Positions 8,326 through 24,546 of a stretch of DNA of 26,159 bases are shown here, in pieces. The notes beneath the pieces were generated by a model. It saw nothing but the letters and a program-made list of their open reading frames with translations, ran no database searches and was not told the origin of the DNA. The DNA lies in IMG/VR virus record IMGVR_UViG_3300044295_000214, positions 1 to 26,159 of that record; one strand, 5' to 3'. A program made the translations under genes and the position numbers. The DNA is from a virus. How positions within the stretch are numbered: the stretch's first letter is position 1; each line of letters opens with the position of its first letter.

Positions 8326-11300
8326 TTGGGAAATTGGGTACTCACCTCACAAAATGACGTTGTTGGGCCTCCTGTAGCTCCCACTGCTGTATCTTTCAGT
8401 GAGAACACAGGGCAGCGTAGGCTCATGTCCTTTGGGAGAGTTATCGAGACTCCCATTACGGTTACAATCACTCGTGCTGCCAACGATAATGCCTACTGGT
8501 TTGAGGTTTACTGGTATGAGGTTGTTCTTGGGGAGTGGATTCCTATTGCCCCCTGGTTCCGTTTGGGGGAAACCGTAAAGTTTTGGCGTCAGCTTTGGGA
8601 CGAGGGGTACACGGGTGCTGGTTTTAAAGTAAAAGTTCGTGTTTTTAACAGGAATGGGGAAGCGACCAGTTTTGTTGAGTCCACGGCTGTAACTATTGCT
8701 GGTCTAGGAGTGCCTCCTTCTACTGCTGTAACCAGCATCACTCCCGGTAGTATTGCCATCAAACAAGACCCCGATTCTGGCAGGCAGTGGGCACACATGG
8801 GTCCGGTTACTTGGGTGGACCCCACCGACATTCGTGTTTGGGCTGTAAAGTTCTATGTTCGTGAGGTCAATTCTTCAGGCACCATAGCTCCTGACGACAA
8901 GGGGCAGTGGAGAATCTGGCTGTCCTACGAGGCCCGTGGGGGCAGCAGAACTTCTGTTGCTGAAGGAATGGACATCGTTCTTAGGGATGATGCCTACCAC
9001 TACATAGAGATTATGTGCGTTGCCTGTTCAAGGCAGGGCTACAATGATGGGGACTACTCGGATTCCGCTAAGTGTACCATTCAGAATGGGTGGTCTGGTG
9101 GGGCGAGCTATGTACGCCTTGATTTTGGGGCTTTACCAGCAGGGGCTTTGGCTACTAGTAGGCTTGGGTCCGGTACCCTACCCACAGGAGTAAACGTTTC
9201 TGCTAGTGCCATCACAGGCACTTTAGTTTCCTCACAAATCTCTTCTGTCTCTGCTACGGCTATCACAGGGACCATCACGGCTTCTCAGATTGGGTCGGTT
9301 TCTGCCAGCGTAATCAACGGGTCGATTGTCGCCAGCCAAATTGGTTCGGTTTCTGCGAGTGTTATCAATGGCGGTATCGTAGCGTCTCAGATCACCTCTG
9401 TTTCAGCAAGCGTTATCACAGGTGGGATCACTGCTAACCAGATCACCTCGGTTTCTGCCTCCACCATCACTGGTGGTATTACGGCAGGTCAGATCACCTC
9501 TGTTTCGGCGTCTACCATCACCGGGGGTATTACGGCAGGCCAGATTACGTCCGTGTCTGCCTCCACCATCAATGGCGGGATTGTAGCCAGCCAGATCACC
9601 AGCGTTTCCGCTAGTGCCATCACAGGTTCCATTGTTGCCAGCCAGATTAGCACTGTAAGTGCCTCTAGCATCTCTGGGTCTATTACGGCTGGGCAGATCG
9701 GGTCTGTAAGCGCCTCCACCATCACCGGAGGTATCGTCGCTAGCCAGATCACTAGCGTATCTGCTTCCACGATTTCTGGGACAATCACCGCAGGTCAGAT
9801 CGCTAGTGTAAGTGCTAGTACCATTTCGGGACAGATCGTGGCGTCCCAAATTAGTACAGTTTCGGCTACGTCTATCTCTGGTCAAATCACCGCAGGTCAA
9901 ATCAGTACTGTTGCTGCCGCCTCTATTACCGGGTCCATCACGGCTGGGCAGATTGCTAGCGTTTCCGCTAGCACAATTACGGGAGGTATCGTTGCCTCTC
10001 AGATTACCAGCGTATCTGCAAGTACTGTGGCTGGTCAGTTGGTAGCCAGCCAAATCTCCACTGTTTCTGCTGGTAGTCTGACGGGTACACTAGTTGCGTC
10101 ACAAATCAGCACGGTTTCTGCCGCTTCGGTAACAGGGTCTTTAGTTGCTTCTCAGATTGGGTCAGTATCGGCGTCTGCTATCACTGGGAGTATTGTTGCC
10201 GCTCAAATTAGTACTGTGAGTGCTACCAGTATTTCAGGCTCCATCGTTGCCGCCCAAATCAGCACGGTAAGCGCCACCTCTGTAACTGGGTCGCTTGTAG
10301 CAAGTCAAATCAGTACGGTTTCGGCGTCTTCTGTCACAGGAGCTTTAGTTGCTGCTCAGATCAGCACTGTCTCTGCTGCCTCTGTTACGGGTGCTTTAGT
10401 TGCTAGCCAGATCTCCACAGTATCTGCCACCGCTATTACGGGTGCGATAGTAGCAGCACAGATCAGCACGGTTTCAGCTACGGCTATCACCGGGTCCATC
10501 ACAGCAGGCCAGATCGGTTCTGTTAGTGCTTCTACCATCACCGGATCTCTGGTTGCCAGTCAGATCTCTACTGTAAGTGCCACGTCTGTTACAGGCTCCC
10601 TAGTAGCTTCGCAAATCTCAACGGTGTCAGCAGCCGCCATCACTGGAGCTATTGCTGCAAGCCAAATCGGTTCAGTTTCTGCCTCCACCATCACTGGTGC
10701 CATTGTAGCTAGCCAGATTTCCACGGTGTCTGCTGTAGCGGTAACTGGCGCTCTGGTTTCATCACAAATTGGGTCTGTGTCGGCTAGCGTTATTAATGGT
10801 GTGATCGTCACCTCGCAGTTGGCGAGCCAGATCATCAATTCTGTAAGCCTGTTGTCTTCCAACATGCTTGGCTCCGGTTTGACTATTTCAGACGGAAGCA
10901 CTCTTCGCAGAGCTACAGACGATAACAGCAATGTTTTAAGTAATCCTAGTTTTGAGTATGTTAACGGGTCTGCTCCCAAGGATTGGACTGCTTTTGGAAC
11001 CTCCACAGTTGTAACTACTCCGGTACACACTGGCACAAACGCCATGAAGTTTGCTGCTAACAACAGTGGCGTGTACGCTGGCCCGTTCTTGGTTAAGCCC
11101 GGAGATCAGTGGTTGTTCGACTTCTACTATCGAGCAGACCCTGCCATTTCTGGAAACATGACCGCTTTTATCCGATTCACCACGGATAGTGCAGGGACTT
11201 CTCCAACAGATGGGACAGCCGTAACCTTAACTCCCACGACGACCTACACTAAGTTGACTTCAGGCGTCGAAACAGTGCCTACAGGTAAGCCTTACATGTG

Positions 11301-12864
11301 GGTGCGCTTTGACACTGTTACGGGGACGGTTGGGCCGTACTACGTTGACAGCGTTTCCCTGTATCGGGCTTATGATTCTAGCAAGATTGTTTCTGTAAGT
11401 GCTTCGACCATCAACGGGTTCATCCTGGCAGCACAGATCAGTACGGTTTCCGCTTCGTCCATCAATGGTCAGATTGTAGCTTCTCAGATCAGCACCGTTA
11501 GTGCTGGTTCCATCACAGGTAGCATTGGTGCGTCCCAAATTGGAACGGTGTCAGCGACCGCTATTACTGGCTCTATAGCTGCTGCTCAAATTGGTTCCGT
11601 GTCGGCAACAGCAGTAACCGGGCAATTGATTGCAACGCAGATCAGCACGGTGTCGGCTGGGTCTGTTACTGGTCAGTTATCTGCTGGTCAAATCAGTACT
11701 GTATCGGCAACCTCTATTACGGGTAGTTTGGTTGCCAGCCAGATTAGCACAGTCTCTGCTGGGTCTTTGACAGGCTCGATTGTAGCCAGCCAAATCAGTA
11801 CCGTCTCTGCCGCTTCAGTGACCGGGAGTTTGGTTGCTTCCCAGATCAGTACCGTCTCTGCAACCTCGGTCACAGGTTCCATTGTAGCCAGCCAAATTTC
11901 TACGGTGTCCGCAGGAAGTTTGACTGGATCTATTGTTGCGTCCCAGATCAGCACGGTTTCTGCTACTAGCGTTACGGGTAGCCTTGTGGCTAACCAAATT
12001 AGTACAGTGTCGGCTACTTCCATTACTGGGTCGATTGTCGCCTCTCAGGTTGGTTCAGTATCCGCTAGCAGCATTACTGGCTCGATTGTAGCCAGCCAGA
12101 TTACGGGTGTCTCGGCCAACGTGATTAACGTTGGTACTCTGGCTGCCAGTCAAATTGGTGGTGTTTCGGCTGTAACCATCAACGTTGGGACCTTAGCAGC
12201 AAGCCAAATTGGTTCGGTTTCAGCAACCGCGATTGTTGCTGGTACGCTATCAGCCGGAGTGGTCTACGCAGGAAATTTGAACGCTAGTCAGATTACTGGC
12301 GGTACGATCTCCGCTTCTATCAGTATCACTGCCCCTAACATCACTAGCAGAAGCGGGACAGTAGACGAAATAACCCTGACTGGCGGTAAGGTTACTAGCA
12401 ACTACTATAACGGTAGTTTTGGTGGTGGGATACTGGTTTCCTCTATTTTAGCTGCCGGGAACCTTTCATGGGGTGGTTCTTTTGGTGCAGGGTATATCGG
12501 CATTTCCGGCCTTAGTTTGAACAATGGGGTGGTAATAGCCGATGGTAGTTCTCGGTACTTTAACGTCACCACCACTGGAACCAATGCCCCGTATAGGGTA
12601 AACGCCACCGCTGTTATTGACTACACCGGAGCTTTTGTTGGGGCGGGTGTTAATTGCCCTTCTAACGGAGTTGGGTGCTCTGGTGTGAACATATACTCTG
12701 GTGGTTGGTATTATGGGGCTACCTCTACTAGTCTCACTTTGGTAACTGATGTTCGCACCAATAGCGGTGTTTTGGAAAAGAAGACCAGAACCTTTGATAT
12801 CCGTGGTGGTGTAATCACCTCGGTTGGAACTGAGTCTGCCTGGACCACGGCTTCCAACATCTAA
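8326..12864 (+). CDS. Giant repetitive tail fibre / receptor-binding protein
   Basis: This 1512-residue protein starts at TTG 8326 with GGAGG at 8313-8317. Residues 1-288 form a head region with fibronectin-like beta sequence (for example TVTITRAANDNAYWFEVYW). Residues 289-832 are 32 tandem 17-residue repeats of the type STVSASTITGGIVASQI. Residues 833-1021 break the array with a jelly-roll-like module (NPSFEYVNG, then DQWLFDFYYRAD, then YYVDSVSLY) of the sort seen in family 4/9 carbohydrate-binding domains. Residues 1022-1313 hold 14 more 17-residue and 3 18-residue repeats. Residues 1314-1512 are a Gly-rich, beta-rich tip with two cysteines. The repeats should form a long trimeric beta shaft; the insert and tip are candidates for sugar or receptor binding. 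The tail-tip position supports this. The receptor is unknown. Confidence 0.85.
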   Translation: MGNWVLTSQNDVVGPPVAPTAVSFSENTGQRRLMSFGRVIETPITVTITRAANDNAYWFEVYWYEVVLGEWIPIAPWFRLGETVKFWRQLWDEGYTGAGFKVKVRVFNRNGEATSFVESTAVTIAGLGVPPSTAVTSITPGSIAIKQDPDSGRQWAHMGPVTWVDPTDIRVWAVKFYVREVNSSGTIAPDDKGQWRIWLSYEARGGSRTSVAEGMDIVLRDDAYHYIEIMCVACSRQGYNDGDYSDSAKCTIQNGWSGGASYVRLDFGALPAGALATSRLGSGTLPTGVNVSASAITGTLVSSQISSVSATAITGTITASQIGSVSASVINGSIVASQIGSVSASVINGGIVASQITSVSASVITGGITANQITSVSASTITGGITAGQITSVSASTITGGITAGQITSVSASTINGGIVASQITSVSASAITGSIVASQISTVSASSISGSITAGQIGSVSASTITGGIVASQITSVSASTISGTITAGQIASVSASTISGQIVASQISTVSATSISGQITAGQISTVAAASITGSITAGQIASVSASTITGGIVASQITSVSASTVAGQLVASQISTVSAGSLTGTLVASQISTVSAASVTGSLVASQIGSVSASAITGSIVAAQISTVSATSISGSIVAAQISTVSATSVTGSLVASQISTVSASSVTGALVAAQISTVSAASVTGALVASQISTVSATAITGAIVAAQISTVSATAITGSITAGQIGSVSASTITGSLVASQISTVSATSVTGSLVASQISTVSAAAITGAIAASQIGSVSASTITGAIVASQISTVSAVAVTGALVSSQIGSVSASVINGVIVTSQLASQIINSVSLLSSNMLGSGLTISDGSTLRRATDDNSNVLSNPSFEYVNGSAPKDWTAFGTSTVVTTPVHTGTNAMKFAANNSGVYAGPFLVKPGDQWLFDFYYRADPAISGNMTAFIRFTTDSAGTSPTDGTAVTLTPTTTYTKLTSGVETVPTGKPYMWVRFDTVTGTVGPYYVDSVSLYRAYDSSKIVSVSASTINGFILAAQISTVSASSINGQIVASQISTVSAGSITGSIGASQIGTVSATAITGSIAAAQIGSVSATAVTGQLIATQISTVSAGSVTGQLSAGQISTVSATSITGSLVASQISTVSAGSLTGSIVASQISTVSAASVTGSLVASQISTVSATSVTGSIVASQISTVSAGSLTGSIVASQISTVSATSVTGSLVANQISTVSATSITGSIVASQVGSVSASSITGSIVASQITGVSANVINVGTLAASQIGGVSAVTINVGTLAASQIGSVSATAIVAGTLSAGVVYAGNLNASQITGGTISASISITAPNITSRSGTVDEITLTGGKVTSNYYNGSFGGGILVSSILAAGNLSWGGSFGAGYIGISGLSLNNGVVIADGSSRYFNVTTTGTNAPYRVNATAVIDYTGAFVGAGVNCPSNGVGCSGVNIYSGGWYYGATSTSLTLVTDVRTNSGVLEKKTRTFDIRGGVITSVGTESAWTTASNI
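9190..10821 (+). repeat. Fibre repeat block 1: 32 tandem 51-bp units
   Basis: There are thirty-two units of exactly 51 bp without an indel (31 units from 9241 to 10821 span 1581 bases). Each encodes a 17-residue repeat with a nearly fixed frame: x-(S/T)-V-S-A-x-x-(I/V/L)-(T/S/N)-G-x-(I/L)-(V/T)-(A/S)-x-Q-(I/L). Synonymous codons vary heavily between units although the peptide is conserved. Confidence 0.97.
11389..12264 (+). repeat. Fibre repeat block 2: 14 units of 51 bp plus 3 of 54 bp
   Basis: The same 17-residue repeat as in block 1 runs from 11389 to 12102 in 14 exact 51-bp units. Three 54-bp units (18 residues, with NVGTLAASQI) follow at 12103, 12157 and 12211. The one-residue lengthening toward the tip suggests a change in helical register of the shaft before the terminal domain. 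Confidence 0.95.
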
Positions 12865-18560: not shown

Positions 18561-18931
18561 TGAATTCCAGGTGTGTTGAGCTTAGTAGAAGGTTCATCTC
18601 TTCTGAGGAGATGGATAACGCTTCGCTTGACGCTGCGCTGAGGGCAGGGGAGGAGCTATTAAACGTGGTGGTTGTAGCTCCCCTCACCCTCCCTCAGAGG
18701 GATGCGTTGGTGTGTTTGTTTTCTGATGTTCTAGCGAATAGATCCCACAGCCTACCGAAAGTAGTTTTAAAAGATAGCCGCATTGTTCAGGCTGTCAATT
18801 CAGGACAACTACAGATTGCAGCGGCAGAGTTCCACTCATTCTGTTTCCGTAATGGCAAAGCATTCGCTGAGTTGTACAAGAAAAGAAACACAGAGTCGCT
18901 TCTTTTCGTCAAGGGCGTTCTTTTATCTTGA
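18560..18931 (+). CDS. Conserved-looking small protein of unknown function
   Basis: This 123-residue protein starts at GTG 18560, overlapping the upstream TAG by one base, which suggests coupled translation. It is helical and soluble with no membrane segment (SLDAALRAGEELLNVV, PQRDALVCLFSDVLA) and has three cysteines. No motif was recognised. It is the last gene before promoter P2: its TGA lies inside the -35 hexamer. It probably ends the lysis-side transcript. Confidence 0.6.
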   Translation: MNSRCVELSRRFISSEEMDNASLDAALRAGEELLNVVVVAPLTLPQRDALVCLFSDVLANRSHSLPKVVLKDSRIVQAVNSGQLQIAAAEFHSFCFRNGKAFAELYKKRNTESLLFVKGVLLS

Positions 18932-18997: not shown

Positions 18998-20218
18998 ATG
19001 ACTGTTTTTGAAATCGCCCTTAAGGGTAGTGTGCCCATCATCAGTGTGACTACACCTGATACTGTGAACGCCAAAGCTATTTTGATGGTGTTGTCTGGGA
19101 AGAAAGTGCAGCCCTACCCCCTCAGTAGCGTAGGCTTCCCAGTAGGGCAGAGTGTTCTTTACACCTTGGACTCGGTTGAGAAAGTTACTCCTGACCTATA
19201 TAAGAGGTTGTCCGATGCCGGGGCTTCCGTGGTTGTTATTAACCCCGAAAAGAAGAACAGCCTTGTATTTGATGCTGGAGAACTTCCCACCCCAGACAAG
19301 TTTTATCAGGACTACCTAACCAGTTTCGTTCCTGATGACAAGATCCAAGAGGTTATTGACGCCATCCGGGGCCTGTCCTTAAAAGATGCTCAGGAGATTG
19401 TGTCGATGACTATGGCACGCACTGGAGAAGCCTCTGCTAAAGAGGTTCGCAGAACCAGGATGCTGCTTACTGGCGCTGCCCCCGGCCTTCATACCATCGA
19501 CACCAGCTACGATTTCTACGTGATGCCCAAGGAGATTGACGACTGGATCACCTTGAACAAGAGCTACTACCTGAACCCCAAGACCCCGGAGAAGTTGGTG
19601 CCACGAGGGTTGCTGTTGGATGGTCCTCCGGGTGTGGGTAAGTCCATGGGAGCCGTGGCTATCGCCAATGCCTTCAGTGTCCCTGCCTTTCGGTTGGATA
19701 TCAGCGGGACTACCGGACGGTATCTAGGGGACACGGAAACCCGAGTGTCTCGTAACCTTGCTGCTGTTGAGTCCAGCGCCCCTTGCGTCCTGCTTATGGA
19801 TGAGGTTGAGAAGATTTTTTCTACAGGTGGGGACGAGGGTACCATACAGCGTGTGATGTCTCAGCTTTTGTGGTGGTTGCAGATGCGCTCTGGAAGAGTG
19901 CTCACCATCATGACTACAAACGACTTTCACAAGATCCCTAAGGAGCTATACAGGCCGGGGAGAATAGACCGGGTAATCTCCATCCCCAAGTTGAACTTCG
20001 AGCAGTCCCTTGAGTTTGCTTGCCAGGTGTATAAGAGTGTGGTGGGAACTCGTATAACGAAGGGTAGAAAAGACATGCTGGAGTTGGCACTGCACAATCT
20101 GATGGATTTCCAGCACCAAACCGAGTCACATGCGACCATCACCGAACTGGTGTATGAGGAGATCAAGCGTCGGGAGTGGCTTGACTTAGAACTGCAATCA
20201 GTTGCAAAAAAATCTTAG
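18998..20218 (+). CDS. AAA+ ATPase (Ycf46-like)
   Basis: This 406-residue protein starts at ATG 18998, after the AAGGAG at 18979-18984 with a longer-than-usual spacing. Residues 180-370 form a classic AAA module: PRGLLLDGPPGVGKS with Walker A at 209-216, Walker B LLMDEVEK near 266-272, sensor 1 TTND at 306-309 and the arginine-finger region RPGRIDR at 319-325. The block before Walker A (an EIDDWI helix) and the LDISGTTGRYLGDTETR segment resemble Ycf46-type ATPases. Residues 1-170 form an N-terminal region whose partner is unknown. It is probably a hexameric remodelling ATPase of early phage development; the substrate cannot be told. A dispersed palindrome encodes its C-terminal LQSVAKK. Confidence 0.85.
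   Translation: MTVFEIALKGSVPIISVTTPDTVNAKAILMVLSGKKVQPYPLSSVGFPVGQSVLYTLDSVEKVTPDLYKRLSDAGASVVVINPEKKNSLVFDAGELPTPDKFYQDYLTSFVPDDKIQEVIDAIRGLSLKDAQEIVSMTMARTGEASAKEVRRTRMLLTGAAPGLHTIDTSYDFYVMPKEIDDWITLNKSYYLNPKTPEKLVPRGLLLDGPPGVGKSMGAVAIANAFSVPAFRLDISGTTGRYLGDTETRVSRNLAAVESSAPCVLLMDEVEKIFSTGGDEGTIQRVMSQLLWWLQMRSGRVLTIMTTNDFHKIPKELYRPGRIDRVISIPKLNFEQSLEFACQVYKSVVGTRITKGRKDMLELALHNLMDFQHQTESHATITELVYEEIKRREWLDLELQSVAKKS
20193..20206. repeat. 14-bp palindrome site 6
   Basis: TGCAATCAGTTGCA in the last codons of the AAA+ gene, 21 bp before the -35 of promoter P3. It is part of the 21-bp exact match to site 1. Confidence 0.85.
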
Positions 20219-21535: not shown

Positions 21536-21579
21536 GAAGCCCTTAGATTTAGGTCTAGGGGCTTCGCCCTTTTTCTTTT
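21536..21579 (+). terminator. Rho-independent terminator
   Basis: GAAGCCCTTAGA (21536-21547) pairs fully with TCTAGGGGCTTC (21554-21565), one pair being G-T, around a 6-base loop. CCCTTTTTCTTTT follows. It ends the P3 two-gene unit and separates it from the replication genes. Confidence 0.95.
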
Positions 21580-21605
21580 CAAAACTAAGAAGTTTAGGAG
21601 TAGTG

Positions 21606-22694
21606 ATGCTGACAGGCAACGCTGTAGTAGACGCTCTCATGGACAGTCATAGTCCATCCTCCGCTGTTCCCAACAGTTGGTTTTTTTCCCCGAAGTTTTG
21701 CAATAAGTCTGGGACAGTGAACATGCTGGCAATGTTCATCTTGTCTGACATCCTCTATTGGTACAGGCCAACATCGGATTACAAAGACGGAGAGATACGT
21801 TACCGTACCCGTTTTCGGTCTGACATGTTGCAGAAGTCCTATGAGGATTTTGCAGAGAAGTTTAACGTTCCTAAGAGGAAAGTGAAAGACGCCTGTGATG
21901 TCCTTGTGTCTGGTGGTTTGATTGTCAGGCAGTTTAGAACTGTTAAGATGAAGAATGGTGGGAAAGCCACCAACGTCATGTTTGTTGAGCCTGTGCCTGA
22001 GGTAGTACTTTCTATTGCTGAGTACCCTCCCTCTAAAAATGAGGGCACCCTCCCCACGATTTCGGTAGGACCCTCCCACCAAAATCAGCATGACCCTCCC
22101 CCCAATTTTGGGGATACAAATACAAAGAATACTTCAGAGAATACAACAGAGAATACTCAAGAAGGCGTGCTGACGCACGCGACTCCGAATGGCAGTCCAG
22201 ACACTTTAAAAATACCGGGGGTGAAAGAAGTGGATTCCGACGAAATTTTACGGCTTCATAATGAGCGTAAGGGGGTTGCAAATTACGGGGTTGGGTTAGA
22301 CCAGACCTGGAAACGGTTTGTTAGTCTGGTGCATGATCGGCAGGTTTATGTGACTGCACAACAGCGTGGACAGTTGAAACATCTGGCTACGAAGGTTGGG
22401 GGTCATAACCGTGCGGTGGATGTGCTCGTTTACGTGATTGAGCATTGGAGTGAGTTCGGTCAGCGTGCTATTTCTGATGGTGGGAAGAAGGGAACCTACA
22501 GTTCATACCCGGATATAGGGTTTACGCTAGTCCATGCGGACACGGCTTTGGACATGTTTTTGCAATCAATTTCAAAGAAAAAGGCTGCGCCCGTGCCTGT
22601 CCCCGAACCTGTTGTGGAGTCTCTTGAAGACAAGATCATCACCTACACTGCTGAGGAGATGGACATGATTCTTGCCGGGATCAAGAAGGTATGA
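21606..22694 (+). CDS. Replication initiator with an internal origin
   Basis: This 362-residue protein starts at ATG 21606 with AGGAG at 21596-21600; the GTG at 21603 is too close. Residues 30-120 look like the winged-helix DNA-binding domain of phage replication initiators (lambda O/DnaD type): MFILSDILYWYRP, then SYEDFAEKFNVPKRKVKDAC, then LVSGGLIVRQFRTV. Residues 138-205 are a polar, Pro/Asn/Thr-rich linker whose DNA carries the iterons. Residues 215-340 form a helical C-terminal domain likely to contact the loader or helicase. The gene overlaps the loader gene by 4 bases and precedes the helicase. The lambda O arrangement, with the origin inside the initiator gene, is the best parallel. 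The name is not certain; the function is well supported by context. Confidence 0.8.
   Translation: MLTGNAVVDALMDSHSPSSAVPNSWFFSPKFCNKSGTVNMLAMFILSDILYWYRPTSDYKDGEIRYRTRFRSDMLQKSYEDFAEKFNVPKRKVKDACDVLVSGGLIVRQFRTVKMKNGGKATNVMFVEPVPEVVLSIAEYPPSKNEGTLPTISVGPSHQNQHDPPPNFGDTNTKNTSENTTENTQEGVLTHATPNGSPDTLKIPGVKEVDSDEILRLHNERKGVANYGVGLDQTWKRFVSLVHDRQVYVTAQQRGQLKHLATKVGGHNRAVDVLVYVIEHWSEFGQRAISDGGKKGTYSSYPDIGFTLVHADTALDMFLQSISKKKAAPVPVPEPVVESLEDKIITYTAEEMDMILAGIKKV
22024..22115 (+). repeat. Four 23-bp origin iterons
   Basis: ACCCTCCC begins at 22024, 22047, 22070 and 22093, exactly 23 bp apart each time, followed in each unit by an A/T run at the same place (AAAAAT, GATTT, AAAAT, AATTTT). Twenty-three is not a multiple of three, so the encoded peptide does not repeat. 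The conservation therefore acts on DNA. These are predicted binding sites of the initiator in whose gene they lie. Confidence 0.85.
22116..22180 (+). other. AT-rich unwinding region with 12-bp repeats and a hairpin
   Basis: Directly after the iterons, 22116-22160 is AT-rich and low in G on the + strand. AGAATAC occurs at 22126, 22138 and 22150, 12 bp apart, preceded by the related GATACAAATACA. A hairpin GCGTGC-TGAC-GCACGC follows at 22165-22180. The order iterons, AT-rich repeats, hairpin matches a DNA-unwinding element of a replication origin. Confidence 0.75.
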
Positions 22695-23221
22695 AAGTCA
22701 TAGACGAGAAAGAGCATAGTCGGTTGTTGCTGGAACGCACCAACCTACTGCATCAAGCGGGGATTCAAGAGAAGTTCCTGATGGAGTCCATGACCGAGTA
22801 CTGTGGACCTAAGGAAGTTGAGTGGGTGCAGAATTTCCACGCTCACCGGAAAAGTGGTATTCCTGGTTTGCTGATTGTGGGTACCCCTGATCCTGCCATT
22901 CGGTGTCAGGCCATAGCAGGAGCACTGCTCCGAAACTACATTGACGCTAGAGTGGTGTCTCTGTCCTCCTTGCTGGACAGTGCAGAGAGTGGGAAAGCCC
23001 CCCATCCTACGGTGTTGTTGGTTCCCAATTTTTTCGTAGACTTACCCGGTGGTAAGACCCTTGCCGCCTGGAAAGTTCAGGTTTTGTACGATATCCTACT
23101 GAACCGGGCAGCAAAGGGGTTGCCTAGTGTTGTTTGTGCCGACAACATGAAAGCCGTAGACCGAGATTACGGTACCCCGTTCATGAATTTCTTACTTGGC
23201 TTTATGAAAGCGGAGGCGTGA
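22691..23221 (+). CDS. Degenerate DnaC-like helicase loader
   Basis: This 176-residue protein starts at ATG 22691 within ATGA, overlapping the initiator stop. The layout follows DnaC/DnaA-type loader ATPases: GIPGLLIVG then an ALLRNYIDARVVSLSSLL helix-strand at 56-95, TVLLVPNFF at 107-115 in place of Walker B, and LNRAAKGLPSVVCADNM near 137-153 in place of the sensor region. The Walker A position reads GTPDPAIRC (64-72) instead of GxxGxGKT, so the lysine is missing, and the Walker B acids are replaced by PN. It should not hydrolyse ATP. It lies between the initiator and the DnaB-family helicase, so helicase delivery is the likely role. The homology is an inference from pattern. Confidence 0.6.
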   Translation: MKVIDEKEHSRLLLERTNLLHQAGIQEKFLMESMTEYCGPKEVEWVQNFHAHRKSGIPGLLIVGTPDPAIRCQAIAGALLRNYIDARVVSLSSLLDSAESGKAPHPTVLLVPNFFVDLPGGKTLAAWKVQVLYDILLNRAAKGLPSVVCADNMKAVDRDYGTPFMNFLLGFMKAEA

Positions 23222-23226
23222 GTTGA

Positions 23227-24546
23227 ATGTCAGCGTATGGTTTGGGTTTGAAAGCGATTGTAAAACTGTGCTTAGAGCAAGACCCTCTGGAGTGGCATCG
23301 TGCGAAGTTGAGAAGTGCCTTTTTCAAGGCTCATGAAGTTGGGGTGTTTGATTGGGTTCAGGATCACCTGTCTAAACACCATGCGTTGCCCAACATTCAG
23401 ACAGTGGTATCGAAGTTTCCTGATGTTCAGCAGCTAGTTGACCAAGTTCCTGAGCCTGTAAGTTACTACGTTCAGCAGATTGAGAATCGGTATTTCTACG
23501 ACCGTATCAACCACGCCAACCTGAAGTCACAGGAGATCTTACAGGGAGATCCTACGGCGTATGACGGTGCTGCTCTAGTTCTCCGTGATGTTCTCAACGA
23601 CCTAACAGAACAGCGGTTCCGTTTGCGAATAACGGACCTTGGATCTGAAGGCGTGAAGATGGTGGAGGACCAGTACAACTCAAGCTCTGAGCATAAAGAG
23701 GGGGCGTTGTTTGGGTGGCCCTATCTCGACTCGCAGGGGTCCATGGCAGAGGGTGAGATTGTGTCCATTGTGGGCCGTCCTATGGCTGGTAAGACGTGGT
23801 TGACGTTGCACATGGCTTTGGTGAACTGGAGGTTGAAGTACACGTTACCAAAGAAGCGTAAGAACGTGTTAGTGGTGTCCATGGAAATGATGCCCCTCCC
23901 CATCATGCAGCGCCTTGCCGCCATGTATACAGGGTGCAGTATCGGGATGTTGAAGGGGCCTGGATTTGGAACTCACGTTGGGGCCAAGTTTAAGAACGGC
24001 CTGATGCAAATGCAGCAAGAGGAAAGTAAGCTGTATGTCGTGGACGGGAATCTAGCTGCGTCCGTGATTGACATTTACGAGTTGGCTGACATGCTGCACT
24101 GTCACATGGTTCTAGTAGACGGTGCTTACCTCTTGAAGCATAAGAACTTACGGTTGGATAGGTACACTAGGGTTGCCGAGAACGTGGAGTTGATGAAACA
24201 CACCACCACGGATCTAGGAATGGTTACTGGTGCCAGTTGGCAGTTTGGTAGAAAAGCAGCCGAGAAGGGCAAGAAGGGTGGAGACTCTGACGACACAGGG
24301 CTTGAGGATATCGGGTACTCTGATGCCATAGGTCAGGTTTCGTCTGTTGTTCTTGGTTTGTTTCAGGAACAGTCAGTTGAGACTTTGACTAAGCGCAAGA
24401 TCAAAGTTTTGAAGGGAAGAAATGGTGAAACAGGTGAGTTTTCGATAGCATGGGATTTCTCGCTGATGGATTTCTCCCAGGTGGACCCGCCTTTGCCCAC
24501 CTCCAACAACGTTGTTAAGCCACCGGAGAAACTGAAGTTCCTGTGA
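23227..24546 (+). CDS. Replicative DNA helicase, DnaB/RecA-fold family
   Basis: This 439-residue protein starts at ATG 23227 with GGAGG at 23212-23216. Residues 1-150 form a helical N-terminal domain (NIQTVVSKFPDVQQLVDQVP) like that of DnaB. Residues 155-420 form the motor: Walker A GRPMAGKT at 183-190, the following VLVVSMEMMPLPIMQRLAA (motif 1a type), Walker B CHMVLVDG with D298, a GASWQFGRKA segment in the sensor position, and KIKVLKGRNGETGEF, the typical C-terminal DnaB signature with the RNG finger loop. It should unwind the fork as a hexamer. Initiator, loader and helicase lie in one operon; the primase is 0.8 kb downstream. Confidence 0.9.
   Translation: MSAYGLGLKAIVKLCLEQDPLEWHRAKLRSAFFKAHEVGVFDWVQDHLSKHHALPNIQTVVSKFPDVQQLVDQVPEPVSYYVQQIENRYFYDRINHANLKSQEILQGDPTAYDGAALVLRDVLNDLTEQRFRLRITDLGSEGVKMVEDQYNSSSEHKEGALFGWPYLDSQGSMAEGEIVSIVGRPMAGKTWLTLHMALVNWRLKYTLPKKRKNVLVVSMEMMPLPIMQRLAAMYTGCSIGMLKGPGFGTHVGAKFKNGLMQMQQEESKLYVVDGNLAASVIDIYELADMLHCHMVLVDGAYLLKHKNLRLDRYTRVAENVELMKHTTTDLGMVTGASWQFGRKAAEKGKKGGDSDDTGLEDIGYSDAIGQVSSVVLGLFQEQSVETLTKRKIKVLKGRNGETGEFSIAWDFSLMDFSQVDPPLPTSNNVVKPPEKLKFL

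Follow-up and report, generated by a model that had tools for sequence, protein, structure and literature searches.

We found that the segment at 22024-22163, inside the gene for a predicted replication initiator, is in all likelihood the phage's replication origin, a reading to which we give a probability of about 0.9. The window, the whole stretch of DNA that was analysed, is the entire 26,159-base linear IMG/VR record IMGVR_UViG_3300044295_000214, and as the record is a fragment, a second origin may lie elsewhere. A sequence-only reading had proposed a lambda-like origin plan, with iterons inside an initiator gene, an adjacent low-stability AT-rich stretch and genes for a loader and a helicase downstream, and each of these elements was recovered, the loader as a candidate. 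The origin reading rests on iterons that go beyond what the peptide demands, on the low stability of the adjoining array, on the family and fold of the initiator and on the loader candidate and DnaB gene next door. It draws further on the repeats and 12-mer conserved in relatives, on the frozen codons of the array, on loci picked by their loader gene and on analogy with lambda, SPP1 oriL and pSK41. The features are as follows.

21536 to 21577, + strand: terminator-like hairpin of 13 pairs with a T-rich tail, directly upstream of the initiator gene
21603 to 22694, + strand: replication initiator gene holding the predicted origin, starting at GTG 21603 or ATG 21606 (phrog_270, winged helix)
Initiator domains (AlphaFold model): winged helix at about residues 1-140, then a predicted disordered linker, then a helical C-terminal part
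22024 to 22115, + strand: four 23-bp iterons with ACCCTCCC heads at 22024, 22047, 22070 and 22093
22116 to 22163, + strand: A-rich 12-bp array, ACAAATACAAAGAAT ACTTCAGAGAAT ACAACAGAGAAT ACTCAAGAA, the predicted DNA unwinding element
22165 to 22180, + strand: perfect 6-bp-stem hairpin, GCGTGC-TGAC-GCACGC
22691 to 23221, + strand: helicase-loader candidate, DnaC-like in layout by eye, with homologues that adjoin DnaB
23227 to 24546, + strand: DnaB-like replicative helicase (PF03796, E 3e-16; phrog_19, E 2e-41)

The product of 21603-22694 matches phrog_270, a replication initiation protein family, with an E value of 2e-12 and, more weakly, O-like and DnaD-like families. In the AlphaFold model residues 1-140 form a confident winged helix, and the very low confidence at residues 145-232 fits a disordered linker. 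Structural matches of the winged-helix domain include the RepA_N initiators 4pql, 4pt7, 5kbj and 4pta (Z 7.7-8.2) and DnaD, and unrelated winged helices score as high as the RepA_N domains. By family and fold the gene product would be a DNA-binding replication initiator, in keeping with the winged-helix initiator proposed from the letters. The iterons encode approximately residues 141-171 and the array encodes residues 172-187, which places the predicted origin within the linker DNA. Many homologous initiators in phage and plasmid records are annotated as GntR-family regulators, as primosomal protein or as hypothetical.

The terminator-like hairpin at 21536-21577 is the probable boundary of the replication operon, and downstream of the initiator gene lie the loader candidate and then DnaB, the order that had been proposed. 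The loader candidate has no family match and lacks a canonical P-loop, carrying GTPDPA instead. Its homologues in large siphophages always stand beside DnaB, and DLP_5, RcZahn and Rhizobium phages of ~95-100 kb encode homologues of both proteins in this order too; it is from this homology to DnaB neighbours that the product of 22691-23221 is a candidate loader. It is possibly an ATPase-dead loader. An AAA-family ATPase is encoded at 18998-20218, two genes upstream of the initiator, and RcZahn and the Rhizobium phages share the order AAA ATPase, unknown gene or genes, initiator, loader and DnaB. Elsewhere in the window, long 51-bp tandem repeats at 9388-10495 run in-frame within a 1512-aa ORF (8326-12864) and are probably a protein-level feature of a collagen- or fibre-like structural protein. 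Within this fragment GC skew does not switch at the predicted origin.

The four ACCCTCCC heads lie on the + strand exactly 23 bp apart, as had been noticed at the outset. One further exact copy is found in the window, at 18686, and when spacings of 10-60 bp were scanned no other window site held four exact 8-mers at a single fixed spacing. Synonymous recoding of the segment, in which the peptide is kept and codons are drawn from the phage's own usage, did not once yield four 8-mer copies at 23 bp in 100,000 recodings and yielded three copies in 5 of them, confirming that the iterons exceed chance and peptide constraint. Applied to the whole gene with a cruder repeat score, synonymous shuffling gives a weaker result for the window (1 of 60 shuffles reaches its value) because identity is limited to the heads. 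Inverted-repeat character around an A/T centre is clear in the first and fourth units and weak in the second, and it was not seen in the third. The argument that a period indivisible by three places selection on the DNA stands for the 23-bp iterons but does not reach the array, since 12 is a multiple of three.

These results bear directly on the notion that the repeats are functionless, a product of chance or of mutational tandem duplication in a tolerant linker, to which we give a negligible probability. A linker that is predicted to be disordered would indeed tolerate repeats, but identity is confined to the 8-bp heads while the units otherwise differ, the spacing is exact, and recoding never yields four copies. 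Moreover, a 22-23 bp period recurs in distant relatives with unrelated sequences, and the relatives' repeats are far above codon-usage expectation.

Pairs of ACCCTCCC 23 bp apart occur in 86 contigs, with 23 contigs for the reversed core and 19 for a 28-bp spacing. Some contigs carry the arrays antisense in winged-helix-like ORFs. In L006, L010, L025, L041 and similar loci, winged-helix-like initiator ORFs have ACCCTCCC at intervals of ~22-24 bp in antisense orientation, in the corresponding position past the wing, and the orientation of the iterons relative to the initiator gene is apparently free. In L009, L022, L043 and similar loci, ACCCTCCC iterons precede an AT-rich array of another sequence (ACATTTAATAAT / ACAGTTAATATT), alike in its 12-bp period and place. 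We considered ACCCTCCC as a universal core and rejected this, as many relatives that share the initiator domain have iterons of quite another sequence; the core would thus be one of several recognised sequences.

Directly after the iterons, the AGAATAC motif recurs three times at 12-bp steps (22126, 22138 and 22150), as first described, and Tandem Repeats Finder reports a 12-bp array at 22121-22157. Nearest-neighbour energies place the window's lowest duplex stability, for both 40 and 50 bp, in the stretch from 22114-22115, which ranks second at 30 bp. Array GC is 29%, compared with 48% for the gene, and its coding strand is A-rich, with 27 A and 7 T in 48 bases. The same bias is seen in relatives, where array GC is under the gene average in all 70 of those checked and A excess is above it in 67 of 70. 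The array region contains the window's best two sites for the array profile.

The low stability of this stretch also weighs on the possibility that the repeats are operators, at which the protein, bound within its own gene, would control how the replication operon is transcribed, the true origin lying elsewhere. Replication initiators often autoregulate, many homologues are annotated as GntR-family regulators and a weak promoter-like match is present at 21922-21949, all of which would suit such a role. We nevertheless consider it very unlikely, given that the repeats lie 420 bp inside the gene and beside the window's weakest duplex, that there is no terminator or convincing promoter at the repeats, the promoter-like sites falling below chance expectation, and that the plan of iterons plus AT-rich region is a proven origin in lambda and SPP1.

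The array consensus in relatives is ACT ACA RAG ANT. In genes with the peptide pattern the array Glu codon is GAG in 75 of 78 cases and in 493 of 1495 elsewhere; the second Thr is ACA in 111 of 114, Ile is ATT in 59 of 59, Asn is AAT in 84 of 86 and Lys is AAG in 32 of 34, counts that are non-independent through shared ancestry, although the same ancestry left the neighbouring domain unfrozen. Where residues of these genes' DNA-binding domain are conserved, the top codon accounts for only ~35% of Thr, 62% of Glu, 52% of Ile, 67% of Asn and 61% of Lys. Synonymous codons of the array are frozen, and those of the DNA-binding domain are near saturation. Because its synonymous codons are frozen in relatives, the array appears to be under constraint at the DNA level. 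Its reading frame is also kept, in 139 of 142 copies, so that descent or peptide constraint is at work as well. A 30-base array pattern was found in 29 viral contigs, in every case in the same frame of an initiator-type ORF and beside many kinds of iteron.

Preservation of the frame in these copies and pattern matches is what would be expected if the array were conserved for mRNA or for peptide, as a flexible TTE-type linker, and not for unwinding. Frozen synonymous codons, however, are not demanded by the peptide, and the uniformly low GC of the array in the 70 relatives and its constant position beside iterons also count against this explanation, which we regard as highly unlikely, with some small probability left on sequence evidence for a role in the mRNA. 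A reading of the array as DnaA-trios was rejected: the arrays of relatives mostly have two trios in a row, not at least three, and DnaA boxes are absent: the window has no exact copy, and allowing one mismatch gave none within 1.4 kb.

The 48-base array consensus matches 103 of 50,697 annotated phage records. Among the matches listed, most are in replication-initiation, O-like, DnaD-like or primosomal genes, and they range from Staphylococcus to Klebsiella, Escherichia mEp460, Burkholderia and Synechococcus phages. We found no description of the 12-bp array or of its 10-mer ACTACAGAGA in the open-licence literature, and the cross-phylum 12-mer is the less familiar part of an otherwise known origin plan. 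The hairpin is present exactly at 22165-22180, as reported from the letters, but such origins do not generally include one: the idea of a conserved third part was rejected, since a score of at least 14 was reached by 14 of 69 relatives and by 8.5% of windows from the same genes, too weak an enrichment.

Neither a blastn match in the phage collection nor, for the whole initiator protein, a related locus in viral contigs was found, and with no close DNA relatives conservation was assessed across distant relatives whose iterons differ. Among annotated phages the closest by protein match at ~31-43% across the N-terminus; they include Geobacillus PT9.1, Acinetobacter, SpaA1, Exiguobacterium, Bacillus PM1 and Eggerthella phages, and most of these have repeats spaced by 22-23 bp with TACAGAGA-type 12-mers after them. 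Relatives were gathered from viral and bacterial contigs by N-terminal alignment alone, to avoid selecting on the feature. The 12-mer core is present in 65 of 76 non-redundant linkers. With periods of 15-30 allowed and synonymous shuffles as control, repeats are significant in 47 of 75 genes (28 at 23 bp, 15 at 22 bp and four at other periods), and the repeat block usually ends shortly before the first 12-mer. The sequence-only reading had looked to related phages for conserved 23-bp spacing, and indeed 43 of the 47 significant blocks have a period of 22 or 23 bp. Relatives that keep the gene have not lost the repeats but have kept them at 22-23 bp in a different sequence. The iterons vary freely in sequence; the array does not. 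Loci picked independently, by their neighbouring loader gene, had significant repeats in their initiator ORFs in 15 of 30 cases and TACARAGA in the linker region in 7 of 30, where 1.0 would be expected.

The predicted origin is of the same, already known kind as lambda ori, SPP1 oriL and the origins of RepA_N plasmids. Lambda ori lies inside gene O and consists of four iterons and a 40-bp AT-rich region, which is required for unwinding and dispensable for the binding of O to the iterons (PMC5043065, PMC7466680). Its likeness to the window is in four iterons, with inverted-repeat character that in the window is clear for two units only, at 20-24 bp steps inside the initiator gene, followed by an AT-rich stretch; the best array-profile position in lambda begins at the end of iteron 4, with a weak fit. 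Unlike lambda, the window phage has its own DnaB-like helicase, and lambda O and the window initiator have no significant similarity (best BLASTP E 0.24), with no lambda O family among the Pfam matches. Because of this helicase and the lack of detectable homology to lambda O, the module resembles SPP1 38-39-40 and RepA_N rep genes as much as it resembles lambda. SpaA1 P41 combines a window-type N-terminus and array with a lambda-O-type C-terminus (E 7e-21).

In SPP1, oriL lies inside gene 38, and the loader gp39 and helicase gp40 act with it (PMC6316719). Compared by published description, both systems have direct repeats and an AT-rich origin inside the initiator gene, followed by a loader and a DnaB-type helicase, and the window has the gene order of an SPP1 gp38-gp39-gp40-type module, initiator, loader candidate and DnaB, with the predicted origin in the initiator gene. 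The window's loader candidate differs in having no G39P family match, a G39P-type loader being found in Geobacillus PT9.1, a relative by its initiator; no second origin like SPP1 oriR was seen in the fragment.

RepA_N plasmids such as pSK41 and pTZ2162 have a winged-helix N-domain, mid-gene repeats that encode the central region and are semi-palindromic around an A-tract, and an exchangeable C-domain (PMC5703833, PMC7145576). The window gene likewise has a winged-helix N-domain and mid-gene repeats, and RepA_N structures are among its best matches. In the modelled structure this fold does not prove RepA_N kinship, as unrelated winged helices match about equally, and RepA_N (PF06970) is not among the initiator's Pfam matches up to E 1.

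RcZahn (Rhodobacter) has exactly the window's order of initiator, loader and DnaB, and DLP_5 (Stenotrophomonas) has it with two small ORFs between. The window loader candidate is 41% identical to that of DLP_5 and 34% to that of RcZahn, the helicases are homologous too and both initiator genes have 23-bp repeats, but their N-terminal domains are only distantly like that of the window and their iterons are of other sequence. The C-terminus of the window initiator matches DLP_5 (E 2e-8) and RcZahn (E 3e-8), and its N-terminus, together with the predicted origin, is of the Geobacillus/Acinetobacter type, so that the gene looks mosaic, joined in or near the linker. The Rep protein of plasmid pPR9, with a phage-like N-domain on a pSK41-like C-domain (PMC5703833), is a known parallel.

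In the mechanism that we propose for the predicted origin, the winged-helix domain of the same gene's protein would bind the four 23-bp iterons as an array, and this binding would stress and open the adjacent 48-bp A-rich array of 12-mers, which would serve as the unwinding element. The initiator or a partner may then hold one of the separated strands, probably the T-rich one, the downstream loader candidate would place the phage's own DnaB helicase and replication would start at 22024-22163. The role suggested for the T-rich strand is modelled on plasmid initiators, which bind single-stranded unwinding-element repeats in which thymines are important (PMC10797057). Beyond this phage, we tentatively suggest, at somewhat less than even odds, that the array (ACT ACA RAG ANT) serves phage origins generally for unwinding or loading and has a constant reader, one unaltered by changes of iterons, initiator C-terminus, loader and host, and that the binding domain and origin are exchanged as a cassette. 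The constant reader might be a surface shared by the initiator domains or a conserved host factor acting on the T-rich strand, and the DNA-binding domain could be exchanged together with its matching origin because the array lies in the linker.

For the window phage, the analysis provides a precise predicted origin, and more widely the frozen-codon element can indicate where the origin probably lies in many phages for which none has been mapped. Array-bearing phages have hosts among Bacillota, Acinetobacter, enterobacteria, Burkholderia, cyanobacteria and Chloroflexota, and the array could help correct the GntR-regulator, primosomal and hypothetical annotations of homologous initiators. The 12-mer is the part that merits follow-up, being common to phages of distant hosts and found beside different iterons, C-terminal domains and loaders, and it raises the question of what recognises the same 12-mer beside entirely different iterons. 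Our findings also suggest why phage initiators shuffle so easily: a crossover in the linker would move the binding domain and its own sites together.
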